Source: an uncultured Gemmiger sp. (GTDB taxonomy: Bacteria; Bacillota; Clostridia; Oscillospirales; Ruminococcaceae). From it: a DNA stretch of 53,510 nt. The stretch spans positions 1 to 53,510 of the forward strand of contig CALXHT010000014.1 of NCBI GenBank assembly GCA_944388215.1. Reading direction: 5' to 3'. The notes under the pieces were generated by a model, which saw nothing but the letters and a program-made list of their open reading frames with translations, was not told the origin of the DNA and did not search any database. How positions within the stretch are numbered: the first letter of the stretch is position 1; each line of letters begins with the position of its first letter. The position numbers and the translations under genes were made by a program. This document shows, one piece after another, positions 1,007-45,599 of the stretch.

Positions 1007-1030
1007 GTTCTTTTCTTGCAAGAAAAGAAC
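1007..1030 (+). repeat. Stop-proximal palindrome family, copy 1 (plus orientation)
   Basis: A perfect 24-bp palindrome with half-site GTTCTTTTCTTG. It is followed on the plus strand by the family tail CAAAAGAACTCTAAC and then the terminator at 1047-1085. It faces copy 2 (1102-1125) across the terminator, so the two form a mirrored pair. No plus-strand gene precedes it now. Confidence 0.85.
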
Positions 1031-1046
1031 CAAAAGAACTCTAACT

Positions 1047-1085
1047 AAAAATGCCTGGGAGGGTAAAACCCTCCCAGGCATTTTT
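1047..1085 (-). terminator. Rho-independent terminator of gyrA (bidirectional)
   Basis: Arms AAAAATGCCTGGGAGGG and CCCTCCCAGGCATTTTT pair perfectly around a TAAAA loop. There are A/T tracts on both sides, so it can work in either direction. It lies about 45 bp after the gyrA stop codon and separates gyrase from the toxin-antitoxin unit. Confidence 0.9.
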
Positions 1086-1101
1086 GATTGGAATTTCTTC
1101 G

Positions 1102-1125
1102 GTTCCTTCTTTGCAAAGAAGGAAC
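1102..1125 (-). repeat. Stop-proximal palindrome family, copy 2 (after gyrA)
   Basis: A perfect 24-bp palindrome, half-site GTTCCTTCTTTG, starting 4 bp after the gyrA stop. In the gyrA sense direction the order is stop, palindrome, tail CGAAGAAATTCCAATC, terminator. The same order recurs after dnaA, jag, serS and noc. Confidence 0.9.
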
Positions 1126-1129
1126 AAGA

Positions 1130-3700
<2,571 letters not shown>

Positions 3701-3734
3701 TCAGTGTACCACCTTGGAATCAGAGTATAGAAAG

Positions 3735-3770
3735 GCGCCTTCTTTCTTTGCAAAGGCGAAGCAAAGAAAC
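3735..3770 (+). repeat. Degenerate member of the palindrome family upstream of gyrA
   Basis: The stretch has CGCCTT at its left end and TTTGCAAAGGCG at its right, followed by the tail AAGCAAAGAAAC. It is an imperfect copy of the TTTGCAAA-centred palindrome family. It lies between structured element copy 1 and the gyrA start, inside the gyrA leader. Confidence 0.55.
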
Positions 3771-3788: not shown

Positions 3789-3967
3789 AATCCGTCACCG
3801 TCGGCGGACATGCGCCGACGACGGTGACACATCCAGGGAAATTGCCCCCAAAATTGTGTGCGAGGAGCCCGCGACGAGTGCGCGGTTTTGGGGGCAATTT
3901 TGTCGAAGGGGGATCCAAATGGGGGAAACAGGCGTGACAGGCACCGCCGTGCACGACTGTTGCCCCC
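3789..3967 (-). ncRNA. Structured leader element, copy 1 (gyrB-gyrA gap)
   Basis: This is one of three copies of an element of about 180 bp (others at 11328-11517 and 44543-44718). Three hairpins are visible on the plus strand. P1 has arms GTCACCGTC...GACGGTGAC (3794-3838). P2 has arms TTGCCCCC...GGGGGCAA (3842-3897) around an invariant core of about 40 bp (3850-3889). P3 starts AACAGGCGTG (3927-3962). The arms differ from the other copies in compensating pairs while the core is unchanged, which points to selection for structure. In all three copies the transcribed strand is equivalent. I do not recognise it as a known riboswitch; it could also be a mobile miniature repeat. Confidence 0.6.
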
Positions 3968-3975
3968 GTTGACCG

Positions 3976-6039
<2,064 letters not shown>

Positions 6040-11119: not shown

Positions 11120-11254
11120 ATGAAGCGTACTTTCCAGCCCAAGAAGCGTCAGCGCAGCCGCGTGCATGGTTTCCTGCAGCGCATGAGCACCAAGAACGGC
11201 CGCAAGGTCCTGGCCCGTCGTCGTGCCAAGGGCCGCAAGAGCCTGACGGTCTGA
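11120..11254 (+). CDS. rpmH: 50S ribosomal protein L34
   Basis: A 44-residue, strongly basic protein with the conserved L34 pattern: it starts [18 protein letters not shown], continues [19 protein letters not shown] and ends KSLTV. L34 is a component of the large ribosomal subunit. An AGGAGG site lies 6 bp upstream of the ATG. It opens the rightward block divergent from dnaA, the classical bacterial arrangement, and is followed by its own terminator. Confidence 0.98.
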
Positions 11255-11276
11255 TCTTTGGAAATGAAGGAAGTAA

Positions 11277-11311
11277 AGGGTTGCTGACAACTGGGTCAGC
11301 AGCCCTTTTTT
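11277..11311 (+). terminator. Terminator after rpmH
   Basis: GGGTTGCTGAC pairs with GTCAGCAGCCC around AACTGG and is followed by TTTTTT. It allows rpmH to be transcribed in excess of rnpA and the membrane-insertion genes downstream. Confidence 0.88.
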
Positions 11312-11327
11312 CGAAACTGTCGTTCAA

Positions 11328-11517
11328 AGGAGGCAACAGCCGCGCACGGCAATTGCCTACCGCGGCTATTTCCTCCTTTGGATTCTCTTTCGACAAAATT
11401 TACCCCAAAACCGCGCACTCGTCGCGGGCTCCTCGCACACAATTTTGGGGTAAATTTCCCTGGATGTGTCAACGTCGTCGGCGCATGTCCGCCGACGTTG
11501 ACGGATTTTAAAAATTG
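11328..11517 (+). ncRNA. Structured leader element, copy 2 (rpmH-rnpA gap)
   Basis: Here the transcribed strand is the plus strand and the order is P3, P2, P1. P3 has arms AGCCGCG and CGCGGCT (about 11338-11367). P2 has arms AAATTTACCCC (11397-11407) and GGGGTAAATTT (11447-11457) around the invariant core. P1 has GTCAACGTC (11468-11476) and GACGTTGAC (11494-11502). Relative to copy 1 the P1 pair C-G has become A-T and the P2 arms have changed from CCCCC/GGGGG to ACCCC/GGGGT. It lies after the rpmH terminator and ends about 20 bp before the rnpA start, so it forms the rnpA leader. Confidence 0.6.
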
Positions 11518-11537: not shown

Positions 11538-11906
11538 ATGCGTTACCGCACCTTGAACAAAAACTGGCAATATAACCGCGTGTACGGCCGCGGCAAGAGC
11601 TACGTGCACCCCCATGTGGTGCTCTACGTGGCGAAAAACCGGCTGGGGTATACCCGCATCGGGCTGACCGCCACCAAGAAGGTGGGCCATGCCGTACAGC
11701 GCAACCGCTGCCGCCGCGTGATGCGGGCCGCACTGAGCGAACATCTCTCGCAAAATATCGGCGGATATGATATAATACTGGTAGCGCGCGGTCAGACACC
11801 CCACCTGAAGAGCACCCAGCTGAGCAAGACGCTGGGCAAACTCTTTGCCAAGGCGGGTCTGCCCGACCTGGCCAAGCCCGCCCGGCCGGTGGAAAATCCC
11901 CAATGA
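11538..11906 (+). CDS. rnpA: Ribonuclease P protein component
   Basis: 122 residues, the protein cofactor of RNase P that helps trim tRNA 5' leaders. It begins [19 protein letters not shown] and carries the RNR-box [13 protein letters not shown] near residue 60, then [11 protein letters not shown] start at the ATG at 11538, 9 bp after a GTGGAG site; an in-frame TTG two codons upstream is less likely. It is preceded by structured element copy 2 and overlaps yidD by 4 bp (ATGA). Confidence 0.96.
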
Positions 11907-41641: not shown

Positions 41642-41662
41642 TTGGTGACCCGTACGGGAATC
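41642..41662 (+). repeat. tRNA-Glu 3'-end direct repeat c (inside the intact tRNA gene)
   Basis: The same 21 bp as at 20171-20191 and 20429-20449, here forming the CCA end, acceptor arm and half of the T arm of the functional tRNA. It would be the attR/attB side of an element integrated at this tRNA. Confidence 0.65.
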
Positions 41663-41717
41663 GAACCCATGTTACAGCCGTGAAAGGGCCGTGTCTTAAC
41701 CGCTTGACCAACGGGCC
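41643..41717 (-). tRNA. tRNA-Glu (anticodon TTC)
   Basis: 75 nt with encoded CCA. The acceptor arm pairs GGCCCGT with ACGGGTC, with a terminal G-C. The anticodon arm is CGGCC-CTTTCAC-GGCTG, placing TTC in the anticodon. The T arm has GGTTCGATTCC. It is the second gene of a tRNA-Met-tRNA-Glu operon and its 3' end matches the direct repeats at 20.2-20.4 kb. Confidence 0.95.
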
Positions 41718-41810: not shown

Positions 41811-41887
41811 TGGTAGCGGTAACTGGATTTGAACCGGTGACACTTCGGGTATGAACCGAATGCTCTAGCCAACTGAGCTATACCGCC
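41811..41887 (-). tRNA. tRNA-Met (anticodon CAT)
   Basis: 77 nt with encoded CCA. The acceptor arm pairs GGCGGTA with TACCGCT, with one G-T pair. The D arm has TAGCTCAGTTGG, the anticodon arm TCGGT-TCATA-CCCGA with CAT, and the T arm GGTTCAAATCC. The A-G-C-T-C D-arm start and lack of initiator GGG pairs favour an elongator tRNA. A CAT anticodon could also be the lysidine-modified Ile tRNA. It is directly downstream of a consensus promoter. Confidence 0.93.
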
Positions 41888-43624: not shown

Positions 43625-44509
43625 TCAGGATTCGGGGTCGTACTGGCCCAGCAGACTGACGAACTTCTGCAGCATATCGTCGCTGTAGAAATCGATCTTC
43701 AGGCTGCCCTTGCCGTCCTTGTACTCCACATGGACCTCGCTGCCGGTGACTTCCTTCAGCGCGGCCTCCACCTCCACCGCACGCTTGGGACGGTGGAAGG
43801 GGTCGGGTTTGGGTTTGGGGGGCTTCGGCGGTTTGGCCAGCTTCTTGCAGAGCGCCTCGGTCTGCCGCACGTTGAGACCCTTCTCGGTGATCTCCTGGGC
43901 GGCGGTGCGGATGAGGTCCTCGCTGGGCAGACCCAGCAGCACCTTGGCATGACCGGCGCTCAAAGCGCCGGCGCTGACCTGGGCGCGGACCTCGTCGGGC
44001 AGGGCCAGCAGCCGCAGAGAGTTTGTCACGGCGCTGCGGCTCTTGCCCAGGCGTTTGGCGGCGGTCTCCTGGGTGAGGCCGTACTTTTCAATCAGCTGAC
44101 GGCAGCCCTCGGCCACCTCGATGGGGTCGAGGTCCTCCCGCTGGAGGTTTTCAATCAGCGCCAGGGCGGCGGCCTGTTCGTCGGTGACATCCTTGATGAG
44201 CACCGGCACCTCGTCCAGCCCGGCCAACCGGGCAGCCCGCCAGCGGCGTTCCCCGGCAATGATCAGATACCCGGTGCCCAGCCGCTTGGGCCGCACCGCG
44301 ATGGGCTGCAACAGCCCATTCTCGGTGATGCTGGCCGCAAGCCCCGCCAGGGATTCGTCGTCGAACTTCTTGCGGGGCTGGTCGGGATCAGGCTCGATCT
44401 CCCGCAGGGGCAGGGTGGTGACGCCGGCGTCGTCGGCGGTGGTTTCGGGCAGGTCGGCAAACAGGCTGTCCAGCCCCTTGCCCAGCCCGCCCAGTTTGCG
44501 TTTGGCCAT
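43625..44509 (-). CDS. parB: Chromosome partitioning protein ParB (Spo0J)
   Basis: 294 residues. The start is KRKLGGLGKGLDSLF, the ParA-contacting peptide of Spo0J-type ParB. The CTPase domain has PRKKFDDESLAGLAASI, GLLQPIAVRP and ENLQREDLDPIE, with GERRWRAA as the CTP-binding box. The helix-turn-helix is GLTQETAAKRLGKSRSAVTN. A proline-lysine linker leads to the C-terminal dimer domain. It loads at parS and slides to organise the origin region. Structured element copy 3 lies in its leader between parA and parB. Confidence 0.97.
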   Translation of the reverse strand: MAKRKLGGLGKGLDSLFADLPETTADDAGVTTLPLREIEPDPDQPRKKFDDESLAGLAASITENGLLQPIAVRPKRLGTGYLIIAGERRWRAARLAGLDEVPVLIKDVTDEQAAALALIENLQREDLDPIEVAEGCRQLIEKYGLTQETAAKRLGKSRSAVTNSLRLLALPDEVRAQVSAGALSAGHAKVLLGLPSEDLIRTAAQEITEKGLNVRQTEALCKKLAKPPKPPKPKPDPFHRPKRAVEVEAALKEVTGSEVHVEYKDGKGSLKIDFYSDDMLQKFVSLLGQYDPES

Positions 44510-44542: not shown

Positions 44543-44718
44543 TCGTCGCTGGCGGCGGACATGCGCCGACGGCAGCGACACCTCCAGGGAAATGCAGACC
44601 AAAATTGTGTGCGAGGAGCCCGCGACGAGTGCGCGGTTTTGGTCTGCATTTTGTCGAAGGGGCCTCCAAAGGGGGAAATAGCCGCGCCAGGCGCCGCCGT
44701 GCGCGGCTGTTGCCCCCT
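44543..44718 (-). ncRNA. Structured leader element, copy 3 (parA-parB gap)
   Basis: Plus-strand P1 arms are GTCGCTG (44545-44551) and CAGCGAC (44573-44579). P2 arms are AAATGCAGACC (44590-44600) and GGTCTGCATTT (44641-44651) around the invariant core. P3 has GCCGCGCC and GCGCGGC (44680-44707). Compared with copies 1 and 2 the arms differ at several positions, always with the partner changed. It ends about 35 bp before the parB start and, as in the other copies, P1 is nearest the start codon. Confidence 0.6.
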
Positions 44719-44732
44719 TTGAAACGAGCGGG

Positions 44733-45497
44733 TTACCGCTCGTTGTTACTCAAAAACTCCCGGGCCAGCTCCATATAGGCTTCGCAGCCCTTGCCGTTGG
44801 GCTCGTAGAAGTTGATGGGCATGCCGAAGCTGGGCGCCTCGCTGAGACGCACCGACCGGGGGATCACCGTCTTGAAGACCTTGTCGCCGTAGTACTTCTT
44901 CACCTGGGCCACCACCTGCATGGTCAGGTTGAGCCGTCCCGAATACATGGTGAACAGCACACCCTCAATGTCCAGGTAGCGGTTGTACTTCTTGCGCACG
45001 GTTTTGAGGGTGCTCATCAGTTCGGTGAGACCCTCCAGGGAGTAGAACTCGCACTGCAGAGGGATGAGCACGGTATCGCAGGCGCACAGGCCGTTGATGG
45101 TGAGCAGGTCCAGCGAGGGCGGGCAGTCGATGAAGATGTAGTCGTAGAGGGGCACCACGGGGGCCAGCACGGTGCGCAGCCGCATTTCGCGGCGGGGGAT
45201 GCTGACCAGTTCCACGACCGCGCCCGCCAGCTGGGTGTTGGAGGGCAGCAGGTCGGTGTTGTACTCGGTCTTGAGGATGGCGTCCCGCACATCGTCGTCG
45301 TCCATCAGGCAGGTGTAGATATCAAACTCCTGCTTGTTTTTGGGCACGCCGTAGCCGGAGGTGGTGTTGCCCTGGGGGTCCAGGTCCACCACCAGGACTT
45401 TTTTGCCCAGCGACGCCACGCAGGCGCTCAGATTGACGGCGGTGGTGGTTTTGCCCACGCCGCCCTTCTGGTTTGCGATTGCGATGACTTTTGCCAC
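44733..45497 (-). CDS. parA: Chromosome partitioning ATPase ParA (Soj)
   Basis: 254 residues from a GTG at 45497 with AGGAGG 7 bp upstream; earlier in-frame ATGs would add residues outside the family. The deviant Walker A motif KGGVGKTTTAVNLSA is at the N terminus, Walker B FIDCPPSLDLLTI near residue 125. ParA forms a nucleoid-bound gradient that moves ParB-parS complexes and, as Soj, affects DnaA activity. It precedes parB in the inverted block. A TATAAT lies at 45551-45556 on the minus strand. Confidence 0.97.
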   Translation of the reverse strand: MAKVIAIANQKGGVGKTTTAVNLSACVASLGKKVLVVDLDPQGNTTSGYGVPKNKQEFDIYTCLMDDDDVRDAILKTEYNTDLLPSNTQLAGAVVELVSIPRREMRLRTVLAPVVPLYDYIFIDCPPSLDLLTINGLCACDTVLIPLQCEFYSLEGLTELMSTLKTVRKKYNRYLDIEGVLFTMYSGRLNLTMQVVAQVKKYYGDKVFKTVIPRSVRLSEAPSFGMPINFYEPNGKGCEAYMELAREFLSNNER

Positions 45498-45599
45498 GGC
45501 GTTTCCTCCTGTTTCGGGTGATTTTGGACCGCAGAACGGGTCCACGACCTATTATAACACAGCTTTTTGGGTTTAAAAAGGGGGTCGGCCATAAAAAGT

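Follow-up and report, generated by a model that had tools for sequence, protein, structure and literature searches.

The three structured elements in the gyrB/gyrA, rpmH/rnpA and parA/parB spacers of the window (the whole 53,510-nucleotide stretch of Gemmiger DNA analysed here) are very probably copies of a MITE of about 215-240 bp when complete, which is mobilised in trans by IS1182, inserts at the hairpins of intrinsic terminators and has an interior with a strand-polar fold. The mobile-element part of this explanation is well supported; from the pattern of base changes, we infer that the fold may work as RNA. It does not serve as a dedicated switch of gyrA, rnpA or parB.

Sequence comparison bore out the three full copies described in the initial annotation, and a covariance model built from 44 sequences, copies 1 and 3 included, scored them at 126, 125 and 120 bits (Table 1). 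The matches to copy 1 extend over 3789-3967 (+), 11329-11507 (-) and 44544-44717 (+), with 88% identity for copy 2 and 85% for copy 3. Read in the orientation of the query, each copy is made up of P1, a linker with CAGGGAAAU, P2, UUUUGUCGAA and P3 (CAAAGGGGG ... CCCCCUUUG and variants), where P1 has the pattern GUC....GGACAUG.GCC....GAC and P2 has variable arms flanking a near-invariant core. The arm sequences that had been quoted for P1 and P2 were correct when checked against the window sequence, and P3, which lies beyond P2, was added here as a third hairpin. All three copies indeed share one orientation to transcription, but the best-folding, G.U-bearing strand is antisense to the flanking genes in each case; for copy 1, the query strand folds with -98.8 kcal/mol (z -5.4), compared to -88.9 (z -4.0) for its complement. 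Their placement in leaders was half right, in that the copies sit between two genes, near the stop codon or terminator of the upstream one. No target duplication was seen at any of the three window copies. The hairpin adjoining copy 2 was read by eye, a simple scan of the window sequence having missed it, and it is also found in several relatives that have no full element beside it; the one beside copy 3, read from the sequence, may be a decayed 3′ terminal hairpin or half of a target duplication.

Table 1. Positions of the three element copies, their hairpins and neighbouring features in the window.
Feature	Position	Strand	Remarks
Copy 1	3789..3971	+	folding strand; type I, P1-P2-P3; gyrB/gyrA spacer
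P1 of copy 1	3794..3828	+	covarying stem; conserved loop GGACATGCGCC
P2 of copy 1	3839..3900	+	core nearly invariant, GUGUGCGAG ... CGAGUGCGC, including several G.U pairs
P3 of copy 1	3916..3971	+	CAAAUGGGGG ... CCCCCGUUG
Copy 2	11325..11507	-	rpmH/rnpA spacer; adjoins rpmH terminator
Copy 2 hairpins	P1 11468-11502, P2 11396-11457, P3 11325-11380	-	
rpmH terminator-like hairpin and T-run adjoining copy 2	11275..11311	+	AAAGGGTTGCTGAC...CAGCAGCCCTTTTTT
Copy 3	44543..44722	+	parA/parB spacer
Copy 3 hairpins	P1 44545-44579, P2 44590-44651, P3 44667-44721	+	
Hairpin 3′ of copy 3 P3	44723..44744	+	AACGAGCGGGTTACCGCTCGTT; spans antisense parA stop codon
gyrB	3976..5964	-	context
gyrA	1130..3700	-	context
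rnpA	11538..11906	+	context
rpmH	11120-11254	+	context
parB-like gene	43625..44509	-	TIGR00180 above its cut-off
parA-like gene	44733-45545	-	ParA-type families matched, below their cut-offs

Other features of the window were noted alongside. A consensus scan found no promoter-like match driving the folding strand inside the copies; a weak one (9 of 12, by consensus match only) lies within rnpA at 11596-11569 (-) and is aimed at the folding strand of copy 2. Palindromic repeats of the TTCTTTGCAAAGAA type, at 1029-1125 (-) around the gyrA terminator and at 3731-3770 before copy 1, are probably a separate repeat family. The segment 920-1140 is strongly folded (z -9.1), and a weak model match at 1029-1125 (31.5 bits) was set aside as the palindrome-rich gyrA terminator region and not a copy of the element. 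Two tRNA genes, at 41646-41717 and 41814-41887 (-), were the sole Rfam matches at the gathering threshold in the window.

The element is confined neither to these spacers nor to the vicinity of core genes. Its own genome (2.33 Mb, 46 contigs) holds about 15 copies or part-copies, with 15 BLAST matches, some of them partial, and 15 covariance-model matches at E <= 0.001. Among 35 genomes of the genus Gemmiger, 27 matched copy 1 and 27 carried the P1 pattern, with 0 to 38 P1 matches per genome (maximum 38 in genome G031). The type I model, in a search whose filters lose weak matches, found relatives in 11 of 197 genomes of the family, belonging to 6 of 125 genera. An exact search for the 20-base core on named contigs, which may omit records very near the own genome, returned 12 stretches, all from Gemmiger assemblies. 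The element is short, without a transposase gene and present in many copies per genome, which is the size and copy number of a MITE. The collected loci yielded 173 distinct copies in which P1 is paired: 132 of type I, 31 of type II and 10 that are either partial or due to chance. In type II, P1 and a P3-like frame are retained but P2 differs, and its loop contains AGUCGCC, able to pair with GCGAC just 3′ of P2; examples are loci L041, L042, L043, L016 and L009, where a pseudoknot GUCG/CGAC is likely. Two further structured modules, of about 65 and 110-130 nt, were nested at fixed positions of the element: one in the P1 loop (L007, L033, L047, L056), which also occurs outside the element (L248; parB spacer of G004), and one between P2 and P3 (L020, L033, L035, L049, L052, L054).

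Complete or near-complete units were found in five other genera (g19, g59, g83, g97 and g107), in multiple copies in g59, g97 and g107. Their order is a 5′ end AGTCTGTCGAAAAA, P1-P2-P3 and a terminal hairpin AGCGTGTCGA..TCGACACGCT with an inverted TGTCGA end. They bring the number of P2 classes to three, the third class occurring in four of these five genera and type I in g19. The terminal inverted repeats are present but imperfect, with AGTCTGTCGAAAAA at the 5′ end and, in type III copies, a 3′ end resembling TTTTTCGACACGCTC, and the A/T-rich stretch 5′ of P1 in Gemmiger reads as a probable worn remnant of the AGTCTGTCGAAAAA-type end.

About half of the fresh copies in these other genera carry the same locus-specific hairpin just outside both ends, mostly complete from foot to foot, and many of the downstream hairpin copies run on into the T-run. 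The flank comparison took in the 41 type III copies whose 3′ end was recognised and whose flanks were of sufficient length. In 21 of them, the upstream and downstream flanks of one copy matched each other beyond the 99th percentile of the cross pairs (20 sharing 22-35 nt and one only 11 nt), and in the other 20 no target duplication was detected. The same threshold was passed by 37 of the 160 Gemmiger copies, out of 173, that entered the test, compared to 1.6 expected, and the best 25 of these 37 matches were nearly all palindromic. A filled locus of the own genome (L012) has a counterpart in a relative (L056) with a single terminator-like hairpin and no element; for L331, whose genus offered only one other genome, no clean empty site was found. 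At L336 (G140), near position 2455, the truncated 5′ end of a second element lies directly 3′ of another element's downstream hairpin, an arrangement that may point to repeated insertion at one terminator.

Ends and target habit of this kind are also found in some IS1182-family insertion sequences. Transposases of this family (NF033551) were detected in 13 of the 197 family genomes at E <= 1e-40, six of them above the curated cut-off, and both ends could be recognised at 5 of the 13 loci. At L380, L381 and L382, where the transposases are above the curated cut-off, the ends are AGYCTGTCGAAAAA or AGCYTGTAGAAAAA, with one AGTCTGTCGAATAA, and identical hairpins flank both sides of the insertion sequence (3 of the 5 loci); at L383 and L392 the flanking hairpin is not duplicated. 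The left end of L381 is identical, letter for letter, to the 5′ consensus of the MITE, and common ends are shared between the MITE and the autonomous elements L380-L382, as well as L383, L388 and L392. For the right end of the MITE (GAGCGTGTCGAAAAA, read inwards), the agreement with the IS ends is poorer than for the left and is limited to the TGTCGAAAAA part. Neither the own genome nor the other genome of its species gave an IS1182 transposase match, and the same was true of G140 and G092. Among 16 screened genomes, 12 gave no match (including G000, G026, G034, G140 and G092) and none gave one above the curated cut-off; G030, G167 and G185 had partial matches below it and G214 a weak one. In G030, a genome of the genus, an IS1182 element is apparently split over two contigs (L377 and L378), with the same hairpin at both ends. 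MITEs commonly lack an autonomous partner in the same genome. The link to IS1182 is drawn from the ends and the target habit, and mobilisation in trans, or by an element since lost, is assumed.

The initial annotation had placed the element before core cell-cycle and RNA-processing genes, and a true cis-regulatory RNA of such genes, acting as a leader or in the 3′-UTR and copied elsewhere later, would account for the covariation and for the compensated differences seen at the same site between species (see below). At these spacers, however, the element is absent from most genomes of the genus. Counting loci readable through to the upstream gene (which leaves out 3, 1 and 1 of 30), a full copy is present in 3 of 27 gyrB-gyrA spacers (G000, G034, G001), 3 of 29 parA-parB spacers (G000, G022, G002, with a copy without P2 in G009) and 4 of 29 rpmH-rnpA spacers (G000, G034, G004, G022); every element found in this count is antisense to the gene pair. 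P1-only forms occupy the rpmH-rnpA spacers of G009 and G003, the latter with an inserted module, and those of G026 and G002 carry what may be read as P3 remnants. The terminator duplications and the transposon ends also speak against a cis-regulatory origin, and together the spacer counts and flank duplications largely refute this reading, which we consider extremely unlikely. Hence, the selected structure proposed in the initial annotation stands, on the strength of the covariation, but not as a cis-regulator of gyrA, rnpA or parB, where it is sporadic; its reserve idea of a spreading repeat is the one that we prefer, in the form of a MITE that has IS1182-type ends and inserts at terminators.

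The remaining gyrB-gyrA spacers contain unrelated sequence, with RAYT-like genes among it, and insertions seem to favour this spacer throughout the genus, as at a hot spot. RAYT-like reading frames and GGCGGGGTCAAGACCCCGCC repeats were seen there in G026, G022, G002, G001 and others (L211-L223); judging by their motif, these are putative RAYT (REP-associated transposase) frames and REP-like repeats. Their presence in the genus would fit a repeat of the ERIC, BOX or REP type whose mobility depends on a different enzyme, for instance a RAYT of the kind encoded in the relatives' gyrB-gyrA spacers. This is very unlikely for the element itself, as its left end and hairpin duplication fit IS1182 elements and not REP hairpins.

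The interior of the MITE is under strong constraint on pairing. A set of 44 diverse type I copies has 95.9% of its cells paired, and both partners vary in 21 of the 41 pairs; compensated cells number 218, compared to 59.8 in shuffles, and none of 500 shuffles reached any of the measures, so that the compensating changes first noticed in the window are far above chance. Sliding the pairing partners abolishes this compensation. Among 26 type II copies, both partners vary in 21 of the 34 pairs, and again none of 500 shuffles matched any of the measures; the type III consensus fold (23 copies) has 49 pairs, 14 of them changing on both sides. The putative type II pseudoknot GUCG/CGAC pairs in 26 of 26 sequences, its four pairs showing G-C/G-U changes only; L192, a copy outside this set, reads GCCGC/GCGGC and would allow the same pairing. 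A pseudoknot in type I was considered by eye and found unsupported. Alternative P3 tips, CACCG and CAATTG, recur among the copies.

In agreement with the initial annotation, which had recognised no family, Rfam searches at gathering and permissive thresholds returned no relevant family for the element. Around copy 1 and nine other loci, Rfam matches were far below gathering, with the exception of a near-threshold T-box leader at 2863-3114 of L299 (89.8 bits, gathering 93), which lies downstream of the G167 copy and is separate from the element. A reading of TTTTGTCGAA as a Spo0A box, on the basis of its motif, was dropped because TTTTGTCGAA belongs to the frame of the fold, and TGTCGA also to the ends.

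The fold is asymmetric between the strands. Across 122 type I copies, the variable pairs (P1 and the outer P2 arm) contain 107 G.U and 20 A.C cells, which are not independent, the copies being related, while at four core pairs G.U is seen in 116 or more of the 122; from the set of 173, this count drops 46 copies without the P2 core, one without its 3′ side, one at an edge and three duplicates. Since G.U pairs become A.C mismatches on the complement and a cruciform is symmetric, a single-stranded molecule is indicated, the simplest candidate for which is, by inference, RNA. This bears on whether the structure is selected at the DNA level only, as hairpins or cruciforms needed for transposition, for example in binding a hairpin-seeking transposase. 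Such a role would be in keeping with the action of IS1182-type elements on stem-loops and with the nesting of other repeat modules in P1 and between P2 and P3, but a cruciform folds both strands alike, whereas G.U exceeds A.C on one strand only, the four core pairs are G.U almost throughout and orthologous copies show compensation after insertion. We therefore regard selection on DNA structure alone as unlikely.

Compensation after insertion was seen by comparing copies at orthologous sites, where comparisons run consecutively within clusters and some changes are accordingly counted twice. In P1, 21 of 32 changes were compensated, omitting two comparisons that are not orthologous (neighbouring matches in one locus: L054, L168) and one with a different P1 spacing, and with flanks only 74-77% alike in three comparisons; the raw totals are 27 compensated, 8 G.U, 4 A.C, 2 double unpaired and 2 other. 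When L157-L190, a comparison of type I with type II, is omitted too, 18 of 29 changes are compensated. The changes in P2 comprised 9 that were compensated, 11 in which a G.U pair was gained or lost, 2 A.C, 3 single changes of other kinds and 2 double changes that left the bases unpaired. Gene conversion or recombination with other copies could give such differences without any selection in place, and it would explain why several compensated changes come together in some pairs (L007 compared to L157), why the P3 tips recur and why P1 arms are mostly shared in some genomes, being unique, among the copies collected, in only 8 of 21 in G001, 2 of 8 in G002 and 3 of 28 in G031. In G034, G000 and G026, however, the arms are mostly unique (11 of 11, 12 of 14 and 5 of 7, respectively); as all 11 collected G034 arms differ, no conversion donor is visible there, although donors may have been lost, and single P2 changes still favour G.U. 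Conversion as the source of the compensated differences is, on balance, doubtful.

The placement of the copies is also strand-biased. With called genes on both sides, 153 copies divide into 88 antisense and 18 sense to co-directional genes, 37 convergent and 10 divergent; by site (119 sites, from 141 of the 173 copies), there are 60 antisense, 16 sense, 33 convergent and 10 divergent. All gene-context counts depend on a home-made gene caller seeded on known genes, and the copies of G214 and G219, where no genes were called, lie outside them. The random orientation that the initial annotation had named as an argument against its proposal was thus not found, the 60:16 ratio being biased to antisense. 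The antisense:sense ratio is 13:7 at sites with a detectable duplication and 47:9 at those without (p = 0.11; p = 0.03 and 0.17 under other duplication thresholds). Fresh type III copies stand at 7:6, one of the six sense copies (the second match in L336) being a truncated element, and adding them to the young class gives p = 0.02. This age trend is weak, and suggests that sense copies are lost over time. A replication-strand cause of the orientation was looked for by hand in two single-contig genomes, with no clear trend.

Taken together, these observations can be accommodated by a mechanism in which the transposase would join the ends of the element to the feet of an extruded target stem-loop, whereby the whole stem-loop would become the target duplication. 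The downstream hairpin copy would retain its T-run and could still stop transcription; we propose that the surviving stop signal makes the insertion nearly harmless, hence the copies just after stop codons. The interior would act single-stranded, most simply as RNA, and copies that place this RNA within an operon mRNA would later disappear, so that mainly antisense ones, like the three of the window, would remain. Candidate roles for the fold may be a processing site, a 3′-end stabiliser, an antisense RNA or a component that the element requires in order to move. As a first guess, it could be a 3′-UTR or antisense structural element that shields the transcript of the host and hence the MITE. 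A bolder form of this idea, in which a structured RNA family spreads as the passenger of a transposon, so that a functional three-hairpin RNA is planted at terminators, is carried in 3′-UTR or antisense transcripts and has its pairing selected at each site, is tentative, and we would give it somewhat less than even confidence.

The natural copies thus display an outcome that the legend to Figure 13 of the IS1272 study (PMC5678879) proposes as a branch of its model, namely the duplication of the entire terminator stem-loop. As the stop signal may survive, this outcome would help to explain the tolerance of such elements behind essential genes. The interior of this MITE combines strong covariation with a strand bias and is available in about two hundred natural variants, so that the question of whether the hairpins of bacterial MITEs are passengers or selected RNAs becomes directly testable. 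There is also a warning for genome reading: covariation and a neighbourhood of core genes are not sufficient to call a riboregulator.

Literature searches, with terms that did not include the name Gemmiger, returned no IS1182 MITE, Faecalibacterium MITE or structured terminator MITE that we recognised as this element, and to our knowledge no RNA element that disperses by whole-terminator duplication has been described. Among known systems, IS1272, a studied member of the IS1182 family, likewise targets terminator hairpins; it is reported to replace the stem-loop or delete part of it, with no target duplication (PMC4923244, PMC5678879), stem-loop duplication being an alternative outcome in the model of PMC5678879, whereas the present element often duplicates the hairpin. 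The IS1182 family shares with the element the TGTCGAAAAA-type ends in this bacterial family and the insertion at terminator stem-loops, but its insertion sequences carry a transposase, which the element lacks. Correia/NEMIS, RUP, BOX and ERIC are short, intergenic, hairpin-forming, sporadic and modular repeats, sometimes with internal insertions, and are likewise structured and MITE-like. They differ in their ends, hosts and targets, and the element stands apart from them by its multi-hairpin fold, its one-sided G.U bias and its duplication of entire terminators. Group IIC introns, too, have intrinsic terminators as their insertion sites and contain a structured RNA, but Rfam found no intron family here, and the element has the inverted ends of a transposon and a target duplication. 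Integron attC sites are strand-specific folded sites just after genes; the element, by comparison, is a three-hairpin unit with transposon ends that is dispersed over the genome.
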